NCBI GenBank assembly: GCA_947588925.1
Contig: CANQAT010000003.1
Span: forward strand, 1 to 45,795
Origin: an uncultured Bacilli bacterium
Lineage (GTDB): Bacteria > Bacillota_I > Bacilli_A > RF39 > UBA660
Direction of reading: 5' to 3'
DNA: 45,795 bases
Every line of letters starts with the position of its first letter. Position 1 is the stretch's first letter. Positions 16,631 through 25,210 of the stretch are shown here, in pieces. Below the pieces are notes generated by a model that ran no database searches, was not told the origin of the DNA, and worked only from the letters and a program-made list of their open reading frames with translations. The translations under genes were made by a program, and so were the position numbers.

Positions 16631-16900
16631 AAAAGTTAGGAATTTAAAAGTTTATTTTGAAAATAATGCTGTTAAATTAATCAATGACATATATGATATA
16701 GATGAGTGGCAAGGCTAGATATGGTGCTATTTGATAAACACGTAGGTATAGTATCGTACAAAAGAAGTAAAAAAAGTATAACTTATGTAATACATCATGC
16801 CAATCAGATATATTATGAAGAAGATATTCTAAAAAGAATGGATGTAGTAGGGCATTATAGAATTAGTTAGAAAAGTACAAGACTTTAAAATATATATAGT
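16631..16900 (+). pseudogene. Decayed remnants of a small gene
   Basis: Three short reading pieces follow polC. The first (about 16632-16717) reads RKVRNLKVYFENNAVKLIND and continues to a stop; the second is 16721-16870; the third (about 16868-16920) reads KVQDFKIYIVDLKTVNNY. The first and third resemble each other in DNA (AGAAAAGT, then TTTAAAA), so this looks like a broken tandem copy of one small gene. No family was recognised. The rest of the 376-base gap to the next gene holds that gene's promoter. Confidence 0.45.
16721..16870 (+). CDS. Short hypothetical ORF, probably a gene fragment
   Basis: A 49-codon frame starts at ATG 16721 (MVLFDKHVGIVSYKRSKKSI...VGHYRIS). It has coding-like composition but no convincing ribosome site, and is flanked by remnants with similar sequence in other frames. 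It is most likely the middle part of a decayed gene. Function unknown. Confidence 0.3.
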   Translation: MVLFDKHVGIVSYKRSKKSITYVIHHANQIYYEEDILKRMDVVGHYRIS

Positions 16901-16943
16901 TGATTTAAAAACAGTGAATAACTATTAAAACCAACATATTTAA

Positions 16944-16972
16944 TTGACTATGTGTATAAATTAATGTATAAT
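16944..16972 (+). promoter_or_regulatory. Sigma-A promoter of DUF3800 gene
   Basis: TTGACT (16944-16949), 17-bp spacer, TATAAT (16967-16972). Confidence 0.85.
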
Positions 16973-17006
16973 TTGTGTTGGACAAACTTGACGAGGTGGA
17001 TTTATT

Positions 17007-17723
17007 ATGAAAAAAACAACGTATATAGTAATTGATGAAAGTGGAGCAACACATCAAAAGCAAAATGATTATTTTGTAATTGCGGGGTATATAACTAAAC
17101 AAATTTATTCAGTTAAGTCTACTCATAAAATTATAGAAAAAAATTTAAAATTAAACTATCCATATTTAGCAAAATATAGTGAATTAAAAGGTTGTTATTT
17201 AAGATCATATCAGAAAGCAGAATTTTTAAATGAATTGTTTAAAATACCTACAACAATACCGATTGCTATAATAGTTGATAAAAAACATCTGTTTAAAAGG
17301 CAACAACACGATGAAAATATAAAATATAATTATTTTATTCAAATACTTTTGAGTTATTTACTTCATAATTTCCCAGGATTATTAAACGGCGATGAAATAC
17401 AATTAATACTAGATAATAGAAACGTTAGTGTTGGTTCCATGAATTCATTGCAAGATTATTTGAATTCTGCTCTTGGGTTAATATATAATAAAAAGTTTAA
17501 AGTAATATATAAAAATTCAACTGAACATAGAGAGGTGCAAATGGCAGATTTAATATCGAATGTATTATATGGGTATTACAATTTTAGAAATGAGTATTCT
17601 ACATATAATTTGGTACCATCAATGAGAAACACTATTATTTCTAGATTCCCTTATAAGTATTTTAAGGAACCAATTTGTAGTAAAAAATCTCAAAATGAAG
17701 TTGACAAACTAGTAAATATTTGA
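17007..17723 (+). CDS. DUF3800 domain protein
   Basis: This 238-aa protein starts at the ATG on 17007 after GAGGTGG. The N-terminal IDESG (D10, E11), a central LILDNRN and the C-terminal EVQMADLISNVLYGYY are the conserved acidic motifs of DUF3800, a family predicted to have an RNase H-like fold. Its biochemical role is not established. DUF3800 genes are often carried by mobile elements and some are linked to structured RNAs. It has its own strong promoter. Directly after it, partly inside its last codons, lies the promoter of a candidate small RNA. It ends in TGA, supporting TGA as a stop codon here. Confidence 0.85.
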   Translation: MKKTTYIVIDESGATHQKQNDYFVIAGYITKQIYSVKSTHKIIEKNLKLNYPYLAKYSELKGCYLRSYQKAEFLNELFKIPTTIPIAIIVDKKHLFKRQQHDENIKYNYFIQILLSYLLHNFPGLLNGDEIQLILDNRNVSVGSMNSLQDYLNSALGLIYNKKFKVIYKNSTEHREVQMADLISNVLYGYYNFRNEYSTYNLVPSMRNTIISRFPYKYFKEPICSKKSQNEVDKLVNI

Positions 17724-17729
17724 TATATT
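17701..17729 (+). promoter_or_regulatory. Promoter for the RNA downstream of DUF3800
   Basis: TTGACA (17701-17706), 17-bp spacer, TATATT (17724-17729). It lies across the last codons of the DUF3800 gene and would start transcription near 17736. Confidence 0.75.
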
Positions 17730-17735
17730 ATTTGT

Positions 17736-17830
17736 ACAAGACCTGGAAATGTCGGTTAGATAAAAAACCTAATCGTGCTGTATGTACGAGGCACTCCAGG
17801 CTAAAAAGATAGGGAATCCTATCTTTTTGT
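17736..17830 (+). ncRNA. Candidate structured RNA associated with DUF3800
   Basis: The transcript predicted from the promoter above folds as a three-way junction. The closing stem is CCTGG (17742-17746) with CCAGG (17796-17800). Inside are GGTTAG (17754-17759) with CTAATC (17769-17774), one G-U pair, and GTGC (17775-17778) with GCAC (17791-17794). An intrinsic terminator follows at 17803-17829. There is no reading frame of note. Comparative genomics has reported several RNA motifs next to DUF3800 genes; whether this matches one of them needs a covariance-model search. Confidence 0.65.
17803..17829. terminator. Bidirectional intrinsic terminator
   Basis: AAAAAGATAGG / CCTATCTTTTT with a 4-base loop is symmetric in its A and T runs. 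It can end the small RNA on the plus strand and the membrane protein gene on the minus strand. Confidence 0.85.
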
Positions 17831-17860
17831 TTTAGAACAAGTAGTATAACAAATTTATTT

Positions 17861-20045: not shown

Positions 20046-22544
20046 ATGATAGAGTTAGTAAATTTAAGCAAAGTGTATAAATCAAAAAAAGGTGCTTCTA
20101 CAACCGCTTTAAACGATATAAATTTAAAGATAGGAAATAAGGGCATGGTATTTATAGTAGGTAAAAGTGGAAGTGGTAAGTCAACTCTTCTTAATTTACT
20201 TGGAGGACTAGATGGAGTTACTAGTGGTAAAATACTTATTAATGGTAAAGATATTAGTAACTTTGAAAGTAGAGAGTACGATGCATATAGAAATACATAT
20301 ATAGGATTTGTATTTCAAGAATTTAATATACTAGAAGAATACAACATATATGAAAATATAAGTCTTTCACTAGAACTTCAAAATATAAAATCAACTAAAA
20401 GTGATATCGATAAACTTTTAGATAAACTTGGAATAAGTGGACTTGGAAATAGAAAAGTAAATGAATTATCAGGTGGACAAAAGCAAAGAGTCGCACTTGC
20501 AAGAGCCTTAATTAAAAATCCTGAGATAATTTTAGCAGATGAGCCAACTGGAAACTTGGATAAAACTTCAAGTGCGCAAATATTTGAAATATTAAAAGAA
20601 ATAAGTCGTGAAAAACTAGTAATAGTAGTCTCACACGATATAGAATCTGCTAAAACTTACGCAGATAGAATAGTAGAAATAGAAGATGGCAAAATAAAAA
20701 ATGATACAGATACTTTAGGTGAAAGTGAAATAAAACCATTCAAATTAAAGAAATCAAAACTACCTAATCTATTTGCCTTAAAGATGGCACTTGCCAATTT
20801 TAAATATAAACCATTTAAACTAATTATGACAATTATTTTAACGACATTCTCTTTAATATTTATGGGAGTTACAATAAACTTTTATATGTTTGATAAAAAT
20901 CTATTTATTACAAACACAATGAAAGATAACAATAATTATGTTTACGATGTTAAAAATACAAAATTCTTTTATAGTTATGGATTTATTGATTCTATTGATT
21001 TAAAACTTACTTTAGATGACTTAAAGAACATTGAACCTATAACTAAATCTAAAGTGAATGCAATATATTCTTTATATGATAATAACAAGTTATTAGAATT
21101 TGAATTTGGACCTAGTGAGGAACAAAATGACTTTTACAGGTCAGAACCTTCAACTAGTTTTGTCGATGTGAAAGATACAAGACTTTTAAATAATATAATA
21201 GGTAGTATTCCTGTTAATAATAACGAAGTGGTAGTACATAAATATTTTGCGGATTATGCAATAAAATTTGGAATAAAACTAGTAGATGATACCTTATACT
21301 TTCCAAAAGATTATAATGATTTAGTAACTTCTAGAAAAGAGATTAAACTTGGTAGTAATAGTGTTATAATAACTGGTATTATTGATGATGATGACACTTT
21401 ATATAAAGATGCAAAAGAAACAGGACGATTCAAAAGTAGTAGTTTGGAACAATATTTTAGTGAAAATTATTATGGAAAAGGTAGTTATATATATAGTATT
21501 GGATTAATTGATAATATAGCCTTAAACGAAGATAAATTATCAGTTTTAGATTCTACAATGCTTACAACGAGAATCGGACTTAGTGAAATATTTGTTTCGG
21601 ATGGAACACCTTTTAAAGTGTTTGATAGTGAGATTAATGTAATTGATGAAAATGGAAACAGTAGTATATTGAACCTAGAAAAGGAAGAGGTTTTAGTATC
21701 TTTAAATTCATTAAAGAAAATATATGGACAGTTTAATGGAACATTCGATAATAATTTACTTGAATTTATAAAAAATAATGCTAATTTAACTTATGATGAA
21801 GCTTTAGCAAGGTTTGTAAGTGATTATTTAAAAGAACATTCAAATCTTACACTTACTTTACATAATTATGCAAATGAAAAAATGTATAGTGTTACTGTAA
21901 AGGGTGTCACACTAGATGATACAAACTATGTAAGTTATGATTATATTAATGATTCTGAAATTAAAACAAAAGAGATTGTAGGTGCAAGAGTATACGATAA
22001 TGATATTAACAATTTAAAAAATACATTTAGTAAATTAATATTTAGAGATAATTATGATAGGGGAGATGAGGGAACTTTTTATACTTTCACTTTGGAAAAT
22101 CACGATGACATTAGTTCTATAATCGGCATATATAAATCTTTATCAAAGTATATTCTAGTAATTAGCCTAGTATTTGTATTATTTAATATATTATTATTTT
22201 CAAACTTTATAGCAGTTACGATATCATATTCTAAAAAACAAATAGGTATTTTAAGAGCCCTTGGCGCAAAGGCAAAAGACGTTACAAAGATATTTAGCTT
22301 TGAAGCTTTGATAATTGGAATTATTTCTTGGATACTCTCTATTATAGGATTTACTATTATTTGTAATTTACTTAATAATTCTATATTTGGAAGTATGTAT
22401 TATACATTAAATGGAATAGTTAGAAATCCATTTATACCAATAATAATGCTTGTTTATACTATTGCAATATCATTCTTAATAACATTTATATCTACTAGTA
22501 AAGTAACAAAGATTAAACCAATAGATGCTATATTAAACAAATAG
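20046..22544 (+). CDS. ABC transporter, fused ATPase and FtsX-like permease (copy 1)
   Basis: This 832-aa protein joins a nucleotide-binding domain to a MacB/FtsX-type permease. The ATPase has Walker A GKSGSGKST (39-47), Q-loop Q91, signature LSGGQ (141-145), Walker B ILADEP (162-167) and H-loop SHD (196-198). A membrane helix at about 258-280 is followed by an extracytoplasmic region of about 415 residues and three C-terminal helices with the FtsX motif KKQIGILRALGAK. Such proteins transmit ATPase movement outward, for example in antimicrobial peptide resistance, lipoprotein handling or wall hydrolase control; the substrate here is unknown. It is followed by a close paralogue with a copy of its promoter, so the pair is a tandem duplication. 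Confidence 0.9.
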   Translation: MIELVNLSKVYKSKKGASTTALNDINLKIGNKGMVFIVGKSGSGKSTLLNLLGGLDGVTSGKILINGKDISNFESREYDAYRNTYIGFVFQEFNILEEYNIYENISLSLELQNIKSTKSDIDKLLDKLGISGLGNRKVNELSGGQKQRVALARALIKNPEIILADEPTGNLDKTSSAQIFEILKEISREKLVIVVSHDIESAKTYADRIVEIEDGKIKNDTDTLGESEIKPFKLKKSKLPNLFALKMALANFKYKPFKLIMTIILTTFSLIFMGVTINFYMFDKNLFITNTMKDNNNYVYDVKNTKFFYSYGFIDSIDLKLTLDDLKNIEPITKSKVNAIYSLYDNNKLLEFEFGPSEEQNDFYRSEPSTSFVDVKDTRLLNNIIGSIPVNNNEVVVHKYFADYAIKFGIKLVDDTLYFPKDYNDLVTSRKEIKLGSNSVIITGIIDDDDTLYKDAKETGRFKSSSLEQYFSENYYGKGSYIYSIGLIDNIALNEDKLSVLDSTMLTTRIGLSEIFVSDGTPFKVFDSEINVIDENGNSSILNLEKEEVLVSLNSLKKIYGQFNGTFDNNLLEFIKNNANLTYDEALARFVSDYLKEHSNLTLTLHNYANEKMYSVTVKGVTLDDTNYVSYDYINDSEIKTKEIVGARVYDNDINNLKNTFSKLIFRDNYDRGDEGTFYTFTLENHDDISSIIGIYKSLSKYILVISLVFVLFNILLFSNFIAVTISYSKKQIGILRALGAKAKDVTKIFSFEALIIGIISWILSIIGFTIICNLLNNSIFGSMYYTLNGIVRNPFIPIIMLVYTIAISFLITFISTSKVTKIKPIDAILNK

Positions 22545-22693: not shown

Positions 22694-25210
22694 ATGATAG
22701 AATTAGTAAATTTAAGCAAAGTATATAAATCAAAAAAAGGTGCCTCTACAACAGCTTTAAATGATGTTAATTTAAAGCTTGGAAATAAGGGCATGGTATT
22801 TATAGTAGGTAAAAGTGGAAGTGGTAAGTCAACTCTTCTTAATTTACTTGGAGGACTAGATGGAGTAACTAGTGGTAAAATACTTATTAATGGTAAAGAT
22901 ATTAGTAACTTTGAAAGTAGAGAATACGACTCATATAGGAATACATATATAGGATTTGTATTTCAAGAATTCAATATATTAGAAGAATATAACATATATG
23001 AAAATATAAGTCTTTCACTAGAACTTCAAAATATAAAGCCGAATAAAACTGATATTGATAAACTTTTAGATAAACTTGGGATAAGTGGACTTGGGAATAG
23101 AAAAGTAAATGAATTATCAGGTGGACAAAAGCAAAGAGTCGCACTTGCAAGAGCCTTAATTAAAAATCCTGAGATAATTTTAGCAGATGAGCCAACTGGA
23201 AACTTGGATAAAACTTCAAGTGCGCAAATATTTGAAATGTTAAAAGAAATAAGCAAAGAAAAACTAGTAATAGTAGTCTCACACGATATAGAATCTGCTA
23301 AAAATTATGCAGATAGAATAGTAGAAATAGAAGATGGTAAAATAAAGAGTGATACAGATACTTTGGGTGAAAGTGAAATAAAACCATTCAAATTAAAGAA
23401 ATCTAAGCTACCTAATCTATTTGCTCTAAAAATGGCACTTGCAAATTTTAAATATAAACCATTTAAACTAATTATGACAATTATTTTAACTACATTCTCT
23501 TTAATATTTATGGGAGTTACTATAAACTTTTATATGTTTGATAAAAATCTATTTATTGCAAACACTATGAAGGATAACAATAATTATGTTTATGATGTTT
23601 ATAATACCGAGTATACTCATTGTAATGATAACAGTAATTGCCCTTTGAATTTAAAACTTGATGATACTGATTTAAAAAATATAGAAAGTATTACTAAGTC
23701 TAAAATAAATCCCATATATAGTCTTTATGACAATAATAAAGAATTAAGTTTTGAGTTTGGAGATAGTGATATAGAATCTGAGTTTTATGGTAGGGATTTT
23801 CAAACCTTTGGAGATTTTTTTAAATTTGTAGATACTAAAGATTATAGATTATTTTCAAATATAATAGGTGAAGTGCCTACTAATAGTAATGAAATAGTTA
23901 TACATAAATATTTAGCTGATTATATAGTTAAATTTGGAATAAAACTAGTAGATGATACTTTATATTTTCCAAAAGATTATAATGATTTAGTAACTTCTAG
24001 AAAAGAGATTAAACTTGGAAGTAATAGTGTTATAATAGTTGGAATAATTAATGATGATGATAGTTTATATATAAATGCCAAAGAAACTGGTAAGTTTGAA
24101 AGTCAAAATTTACATGATTATTTTTATGAGAATTACACTGAAAAAGGGGAATATGTATATATAAATGGTATAGACAATATTAAACTAAATGTAGATCCTG
24201 TCTCAATTTTAGATAGAGCAACTTTAATGAAAGGCTCTGATTCAGATTTGAAGACTGTTGCTTATGGAAACTTTAAAGTAATAGATGATGAGATTAATGT
24301 AGTAGGTGAAGCTGGTAATACATCTATTTCCAAACTTAATAAAAATGAGATTGTAATCACTTTAGATACGTTAAAACACATATATAATAGTGAGAATAAA
24401 ACATTTGATAATGACTTATTAGAGTATATAAAAAGCAATAATTTAGCTTATGATGAAGCGCTTATTTCTTTTATAAGTCAATATTTAAGGGAATTTTCTA
24501 AAGATGTTATACTTAATTTAAGTTATTTAGGTAATCCAACAGGAAATACAACTAGTGTGACTATAAAGGCAGTTTCAATGGGTGATACTAACTATGTAAG
24601 TTATGAATATTTAACTGAAAATAAACCTAGAGAAAAAGAAATAGTAAGTGTAAGAATATATGACGATAATATAAATAACTTAAAAAATGCATTTAATAAT
24701 TTAAAATTACAAGAAGACTTAACATCAAATGAAACTGGTGTATTTTATACATATATGGTAGATCACCTTTACGACATAAGAAATATAATATACTTATATA
24801 AATATTTATCAAAGTATATTCTAGCAGTTAGCCTAGTGTTTGTGTTATTTAATATATTATTATTTTCAAACTTTATAGCAGTTACGATATCATATTCTAA
24901 AAAACAAATAGGTATTTTAAGAGCTCTTGGCGCAAAGTCAAAAGATGTCACAAAGATATTTAGTTTTGAAGCGTTGATAATTGGAATTATTTCTTGGATA
25001 CTCTCTATTATAGGATTTATTATAGTTTGTAATTTGCTTAATAATTCTATATTTGGAAGTATGTACTATACATTAAATGGAATAGTTAGAAATCCATTTA
25101 TACCAATAATAATGCTTGTTTATACTATTGCAATATCATTTTTAATAACATTTATATCTACTAGTAAAGTAACAAAAATTAAACCAATAGATGCTATATT
25201 AAACAAATAG
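22694..25210 (+). CDS. ABC transporter, fused ATPase and FtsX-like permease (copy 2)
   Basis: This 838-aa paralogue has the same layout as the gene at 20046. The ATPase domain, first membrane helix and last three helices are nearly identical to copy 1 in protein and DNA, while the extracytoplasmic domain (about residues 290-690) differs heavily, with only islands such as KFGIKLVDDTLYFPKDYNDL shared. An added CNDNSNCP cysteine pair appears near the start of that region. This suggests the same mechanical engine with a different outside partner, or gene conversion of the flanks. The start and AGGTAGGGA ribosome site match copy 1. A palindromic terminator follows. Confidence 0.9.
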   Translation: MIELVNLSKVYKSKKGASTTALNDVNLKLGNKGMVFIVGKSGSGKSTLLNLLGGLDGVTSGKILINGKDISNFESREYDSYRNTYIGFVFQEFNILEEYNIYENISLSLELQNIKPNKTDIDKLLDKLGISGLGNRKVNELSGGQKQRVALARALIKNPEIILADEPTGNLDKTSSAQIFEMLKEISKEKLVIVVSHDIESAKNYADRIVEIEDGKIKSDTDTLGESEIKPFKLKKSKLPNLFALKMALANFKYKPFKLIMTIILTTFSLIFMGVTINFYMFDKNLFIANTMKDNNNYVYDVYNTEYTHCNDNSNCPLNLKLDDTDLKNIESITKSKINPIYSLYDNNKELSFEFGDSDIESEFYGRDFQTFGDFFKFVDTKDYRLFSNIIGEVPTNSNEIVIHKYLADYIVKFGIKLVDDTLYFPKDYNDLVTSRKEIKLGSNSVIIVGIINDDDSLYINAKETGKFESQNLHDYFYENYTEKGEYVYINGIDNIKLNVDPVSILDRATLMKGSDSDLKTVAYGNFKVIDDEINVVGEAGNTSISKLNKNEIVITLDTLKHIYNSENKTFDNDLLEYIKSNNLAYDEALISFISQYLREFSKDVILNLSYLGNPTGNTTSVTIKAVSMGDTNYVSYEYLTENKPREKEIVSVRIYDDNINNLKNAFNNLKLQEDLTSNETGVFYTYMVDHLYDIRNIIYLYKYLSKYILAVSLVFVLFNILLFSNFIAVTISYSKKQIGILRALGAKSKDVTKIFSFEALIIGIISWILSIIGFIIVCNLLNNSIFGSMYYTLNGIVRNPFIPIIMLVYTIAISFLITFISTSKVTKIKPIDAILNK

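Follow-up and report, generated by a model that had tools for sequence, protein, structure and literature searches.

A DUF3800-I-like RNA gene behind the gene of a predicted RNase HII-like nuclease in an uncultured Bacilli bacterium

We analyzed a 45,795-nt stretch of an uncultured Bacilli bacterium (contig CANQAT010000003.1, hereafter the window) and found, directly behind its DUF3800 gene, a real RNA with a conserved secondary structure, as judged from covariation among its relatives. Sequence comparison places it as a divergent relative of DUF3800-I (RF02969), outside Rfam's own threshold. We propose, with a confidence that stops a little short of even, that this RNA acts in trans as the dedicated partner of the DUF3800 protein, binding it and restraining its nuclease activity. 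In the searchable literature, we found no paper giving a function for the DUF3800-linked RNAs catalogued in Rfam. What is new here is the picture of a trans-acting, non-guide RNA matched by clade to a predicted RNase HII-like protein, which turns a list of orphan DUF3800 motifs into a specific question, whether the RNA inhibits or activates the nuclease.

The RNA gene and its relation to DUF3800-I

The features of the locus are as follows.

17007-17723, + strand: DUF3800 gene, 238 aa, predicted RNase HII-like nuclease (PF12686, AlphaFold, Foldseek)
17701-17729, + strand: sigma70-type promoter of the RNA, TTGACA-17-TATATT (11/12 consensus matches; TG precedes the -10)
17737-17832, + strand: predicted small RNA of ~95 nt, both ends predicted (promoter position and terminator hairpin)
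17739-17801, + strand: three-way-junction core AGACC...AGGC, comprising the P1+P2 closing helix, P3, J3/4 UAA and P4 (models R1 and R2, RF02969)
17742-17747/17795-17800, + strand: P1 (computed fold)
17750-17753/17790-17793, + strand: P2 (computed fold)
17754-17757/17766-17769, + strand: P3 (computed fold)
17770-17772, + strand: J3/4 joint UAA (computed fold)
17773-17778/17784-17789, + strand: P4 (computed fold)
17770-17789, + strand: J3/4 UAA and P4 hairpin (UCGUGC-UGUAU-GUACGA), the most conserved element and putative protein-binding site (column conservation, alignment A6)
17802-17829, + strand: terminator hairpin of 11 Watson-Crick pairs and an outer U-G, with a loop of 4, followed by TTTT (computed fold)

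The original prediction described 17701-17830 as a complete structured RNA gene of about 95 nt, with a TTGACA-17-TATATT promoter in the last DUF3800 codons, a three-way junction and a terminator, and our analysis confirmed all of these parts. The -35 lies inside the last codons of the gene and the -10 begins directly after the stop; the core begins 15 nt past the stop codon, and 9 nt separate the promoter end from AGACC. The predicted start (~17736/17737) and end (~17832) agree with the size first given. The RNA folds with a minimum free energy of -38.5 kcal/mol (z = -5.25), matched by 0 of 200 shuffles. Promoter-like matches of at least 9/12 are frequent in the AT-rich DNA of the window (15 found vs 17.7 expected), and the promoter is convincing only because one recurs at the same position: a match of at least 10/12 ending 8-10 nt ahead of AGACC was present in 20 of 23 loci, compared with 0.3% of dinucleotide shuffles. 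A promoter shared by gene and RNA was also considered and was seen in one locus only (L026). A simple terminator scan of the window did not flag the hairpin at 17802-17829, probably because its T-run pairs within the stem. A hairpin and T-run 3' of the core are found in the window, in locus L005 and in relatives of a long type, whereas in RNAs of a short type P1 leads straight to a U-run.

Rfam scans of the entire window at curated cut-offs, and of 1 kb at E up to 10, gave no match. In a search with 121 bases, RF02969 was the top of 4,227 Rfam families (30.9 bits, E 0.0019, 17726-17836), a score below its gathering threshold of 44.2. Relatives of the window locus scored 30-40 bits with this model, and one of them, L168, scored 45.4 bits, above the threshold. 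L168 was aligned with the window RNA in A6 and the models R1 and R2 both detected the window RNA, which makes it homologous to a threshold-passing member. Since RF02969 is the best family, the relatives score 30-40 bits and L168 passes, we regard the window RNA as a relative of DUF3800-I, and the expected tie to known DUF3800 RNA motifs is borne out. The Rfam gathering threshold thus misses many true members.

R1 was built from 15 RNAs behind DUF3800 genes of the same family, the proteins of which share ~30% identity with the window DUF3800; the window RNA was left out. With filters off, R1 detected the window at 17739-17801 (36 bits, E 6.5e-7), and its second-best match in the window reached 13 bits. 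Against the whole source genome, the window RNA was its sole match up to E = 10. R2 gave the window RNA 50.1 bits. A DNA search with the RNA region returned short chance-like matches only.

The original prediction had named a lack of covariation in homologous loci as grounds for abandoning it. Covariation proved strong, and the claim stands. In 15 RNAs without the window, 8 pairs had changed on both sides, which 0 of 500 shuffles equalled. When 27 RNAs including the window were compared, two-sided changes were found in 13 of 20 pairs and 94.6% of cells could pair (slid controls, at most 5 pairs). Among 73 RNAs, 61 of them distinct, such changes extended to 14 of 20 pairs and 182 cells with 94.9% pairing; again 0 of 500 shuffles equalled this, and slid controls gave at most 7 pairs. 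Alignments A4 and A6 were made to a covariance model and lean toward structure; A3, a plain MAFFT alignment, gave the same answer.

The consensus structure of RF02969, P1-P2-P3-UAA-P4 with covariation, is present in the window RNA, as is the nearby DUF3800 gene. The two share P1, a 2-nt bulge, P2, P3, the UAA joint, P4 with a UGUAA-like loop, and the terminator. However, the window RNA lacks the clear 5' hairpin of the model; in addition, its P3 loop is longer and its P1 contains an A/C mismatch. DUF3800-VII (RF02967), another Rfam RNA named for its linkage to DUF3800, showed no detectable match to the window RNA. In L168, a DUF3800-VII RNA (321-419, 60.6 bits) and the DUF3800-I RNA (2222-2338) flank one DUF3800 gene, the former ~1.1 kb upstream of it.

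Linkage of RNA and DUF3800 across genomes

As seen in the sequences compared, the RNA is genetically linked to DUF3800 across many genera and in every orientation. The core shared the strand of the DUF3800 gene and started 4-88 nt past its stop in 23 of 24 loci; the gene of the remaining locus is broken. Searching for the RNA first in 386 genomes of the family revealed 35 RNAs in 33 genomes, of which 25 lay by an intact DUF3800 gene, 2 by a broken one, 7 without one and 1 at a contig end; "without" means none within 1.5 kb, and L100 has only ~335 nt on that side. Two weak matches (L121 and L122, 27-28 bits), which served as a blind check, lay tail-to-tail with a DUF3800 gene of another subfamily. 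Outside the family, 296 genomes of the class yielded 9 RNA loci, all 9 with DUF3800 within ~1.6 kb. Here the RNA was downstream on the same strand (L102), upstream on the same strand (L103, L104, L109), divergent (L106) or convergent (L101, with three RNAs, L107 and L108), or 1.55 kb away with one gene between (L105/L178). Several hosts in the class read TGA as tryptophan, judging by reading frames.

Among 80 named-genome DUF3800 loci, mostly from uncultured Bacilli and also from Clostridia, Lachnospira, Eubacterium and Mycoplasma-like bins, 71 carried the RNA, 70 of them in gene orientation. This sample is biased to the DESG[SAT] clades because the DESG[SAT] pattern was the search seed. The pair was also found on one viral contig (L204) and in a Fusobacterium record (L113; RNA 29.9 bits, E 2e-5). 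Scans of genome and viral collections with a single protein as query returned nothing, and an alignment query did find relatives. No phage record carried a DUF3800 protein, and few viral contigs did. At window 16631-17006, the genes that follow the polC-type DNA polymerase gene differ in order across the genus. The pair therefore occupies a variable position, and no clean empty site was available for comparison.

Most copies share the strand of the gene and follow it at 4-100 nt. This would suit a cis feature of the DUF3800 transcript, such as a terminator or a hairpin in its 3' UTR, or an RNA that regulates the gene by antisense pairing. We consider such a role the least probable of the explanations weighed here. 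A conserved promoter belongs to the RNA itself, and because its position varies among downstream, upstream, convergent and divergent, the RNA is not a leader and acts in trans. Antisense action on the gene's own start was rejected, as the RNA showed no preferential pairing with the start region of its own gene, which had a mean rank of 10.3 of 22. Since the pair recurs in many gut bacteria, the RNA is probably a dedicated partner of the DUF3800 enzyme.

The type of RNA also follows the type of protein. All 51 proteins with DESGSIH were accompanied by the short RNA and all 20 with DESGAMH by the long RNA; the window protein reads DESGATH, and its RNA has an intermediate form of its own. In the loci sampled, the RNA subtype thus tracks the DUF3800 protein clade with no exception. 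This concordance, together with the DUF3800 gene near each of the nine loci in other families of the class, argues against a host regulatory RNA with targets of its own, for which DUF3800 would be a frequent neighbor or would control the RNA level. Such an RNA would fit the orphan copies described below, which keep their structure, but we regard it as improbable.

A strong dyad across the -35 and -10, with z below -2 in 10 RNAs and arms that change together between species, is present in the 55 nt that precede the short-type RNAs (e.g., L024, L030 and L022). It is weak or absent in the long type, in the orphans L085 and L087 and in the window (z 0.9), and is possibly an operator or a hairpin of the DUF3800 mRNA. 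As a general feature of the RNAs it was rejected, being confined to the short type.

The DUF3800 protein and the question of a guide

The window protein matched PF12686 with 45.5 bits, above the Pfam gathering cut-off of 21. Across the aligned relatives (A5), D10, E11, S12, G13, E59, K61, D136, S171, Q178, D181 and N185 were invariant, and we infer that the acidic residues among them are catalytic. The AlphaFold model had a pLDDT of 87 and a pTM of 0.86. In a Foldseek search with this model, the 12 best matches among solved structures were all RNase HII, HIII or H2, led by 1eke (E 7.4e-7, probability 1.00, TM 0.56), with TM scores of about 0.5-0.6 overall. Argonaute structures were far weaker matches, and a sequence search of the PDB with the window protein found no significant relative. 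A candidate anti-phage model, PDC-M04A, matched weakly (19.3 bits, E 1.4e-4).

Strand 1 ends in DESG, which is similar to the DEAG motif of RNase HII. However, the protein has only ~13% identity to RNase HII/HIII/H2, carries DESGATH and no GRG signature, has an additional invariant ExK and is paired with an RNA gene. On the predicted model, which has the class II RNase H fold, the window DUF3800 is similar in fold to RNase HII and is not a member of that group; it is predicted to combine an RNase HII-like fold with retained acidic residues. The RNase H-type fold anticipated at the outset is thus upheld. Altae-Tran and co-workers assigned to DUF3800 an RNase H fold that shows a catalytic rearrangement and noted that DUF3800 proteins adjoin some Cas12a2 systems (PMC10910872); the likeness to RNase HII is added here to that earlier description.

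An RNase H-like fold, best matched by RNase HII and far more weakly by Argonaute, and the neighborhood of Cas12a2 would both be expected of an RNA-guided nuclease, in which the RNA would direct the enzyme to target DNA or RNA by base-pairing. The original prediction had raised this possibility, and here it found no support. It had also suggested that the protein may process the RNA, which already possesses a promoter and a terminator of its own. The guides of CRISPR and of TnpB/IscB have a variable segment, whereas no hypervariable unpaired segment was found among 72 relatives: in the 51 short-type RNAs, each unpaired column was at least 63% identical and most were more than 90% identical. The most variable columns were those of compensating stems, while AGA, UAA and much of the P4 loop were nearly fixed. 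Since the loops are fixed and variation is confined to the stems, the RNA does not behave as a CRISPR-like guide. In addition, the short RNAs are a structure of ~60 nt ending in a U-run, which leaves no room for a spacer, and the copies in the L005 array are near-identical. We therefore judge guidance very unlikely. The pattern of conservation, read from the alignments, is that of an RNA recognized by its shape and loop sequence.

Arrays, orphan RNAs and a proposed restraint of the nuclease

Some loci carry several RNAs. In L005 (2158-2508, genome G048), three near-identical tandem RNA genes ~142 nt apart are convergent with a single DUF3800 gene; all three possess a terminator hairpin, and the promoter is clear for two of them. 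In L112 (3284-3737; Ligilactobacillus salivarius plasmid NZ_LT604075.1), salivarius-1 (RF03030), an orphan family of Rfam, is present in three copies upstream of a DUF3800 gene and in divergent orientation to it. Salivarius-1, too, is small and able to adopt a three-way junction, but it has no sequence match to the window RNA. Its three copies by DUF3800 suggest that it is another DUF3800 partner RNA. The separate promoter, together with three RNA copies per nuclease gene in two unrelated lineages, suggests that the RNA is made in excess.

RNAs also outlast their nuclease genes. Intact RNAs were found by broken nuclease genes in L037, L095, L141 (one in-frame TGA) and L144 (frame lost), and without any nuclease gene in L080, L081, L085, L087, L098, L100 and L120. 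Within one genus, L026 has the order rpsI-DUF3800-RNA, whereas L080 and L081 have rpsI-RNA at the matching place. In the orphan RNA of L081, a C-G pair of P1 has become U-A, a compensated change that keeps the structure. The reverse case, an intact nuclease gene with no recognized RNA, was rarer than an RNA without an intact nuclease.

We favor restraint of the nuclease because nuclease genes break or vanish while the RNAs stay and the reverse is rarer; the independent promoter and the triple arrays were also counted for it. Restraint was not among the roles raised in the original prediction, and it accounts for more of the evidence than those did. The RNA would be made in excess from its own promoter and would bind the DUF3800 protein, which we infer to occur through the invariant J3/4 UAA and P4 hairpin. 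It may then keep the nuclease in an inactive state that ends when the RNA is lost or out-titrated, as might happen in phage infection; this is the least certain step. The pair would thereby work like an RNA antitoxin (type III-like) or a defense module. The points counted against restraint are the intact same-clade DUF3800 genes with no recognized RNA nearby (L034, L147 and L154), the weak PDC-M04A match and the scarce viral carriage. The asymmetry between orphan RNAs and orphan genes could also reflect target size, a 700-bp gene against a 60-nt RNA, and errors in the assembly of MAGs may underlie some of the broken DUF3800 genes. Since target size by itself could produce this asymmetry, we hold restraint with modest confidence.

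The linkage, the RNA-protein concordance and the conservation fit equally well with a non-guide cofactor, an RNA that serves the DUF3800 nuclease as scaffold or activator within a ribonucleoprotein, with the protein recognizing the target. Invariant loops would suit a protein-binding scaffold, and the acidic residues are kept in the RNA-linked proteins. On the other hand, intact RNAs without a nuclease, including the one with a compensated change, are less readily explained if the RNA is a pure activator, and triple copies with a separate promoter suggest excess and not a 1:1 scaffold. We consider this cofactor role unlikely, though a good deal less so than a guide or a cis element.

Restraint would recall type III toxin-antitoxin systems (ToxIN, CptIN and TenpIN), in which a structured RNA is paired with a ribonuclease. 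In those systems the RNA is in excess, sometimes as repeated copies, and lies ahead of the toxin within a shared operon; the toxin itself adopts the ToxN fold. The window likewise pairs a structured RNA with a predicted nuclease. Unlike type III systems, with their ToxN fold and upstream RNA repeats in one operon, the RNA here has its own promoter and is usually 3' of the gene, and the protein is RNase HII-like. A broader proposal, which we offer as tentative and doubtful, is that DUF3800 proteins may be a new class of nucleases, RNase HII-like and restrained by RNA, with exchangeable small three-way-junction RNAs (DUF3800-I, salivarius-1 and others, in some cases as triple arrays) as antitoxin-like inhibitors, acting as small mobile defense or addiction modules. 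The DUF3800-RNA modules are compact.

Two further observations were made. In L010, from the genus of the window, and in L192, another promoter-driven RNA lies behind a DUF3800 gene that is more distant; the RNAs of the two loci have the words CAGTAAGTCC...GGTAAGCG...TATGTGTTAGCG...AGGC in common and had been missed by the models used. Elsewhere in the window, two adjacent and closely similar ABC transporter genes (20046-22544 and 22694-25210; 832 and 838 aa) represent an evident tandem duplication.
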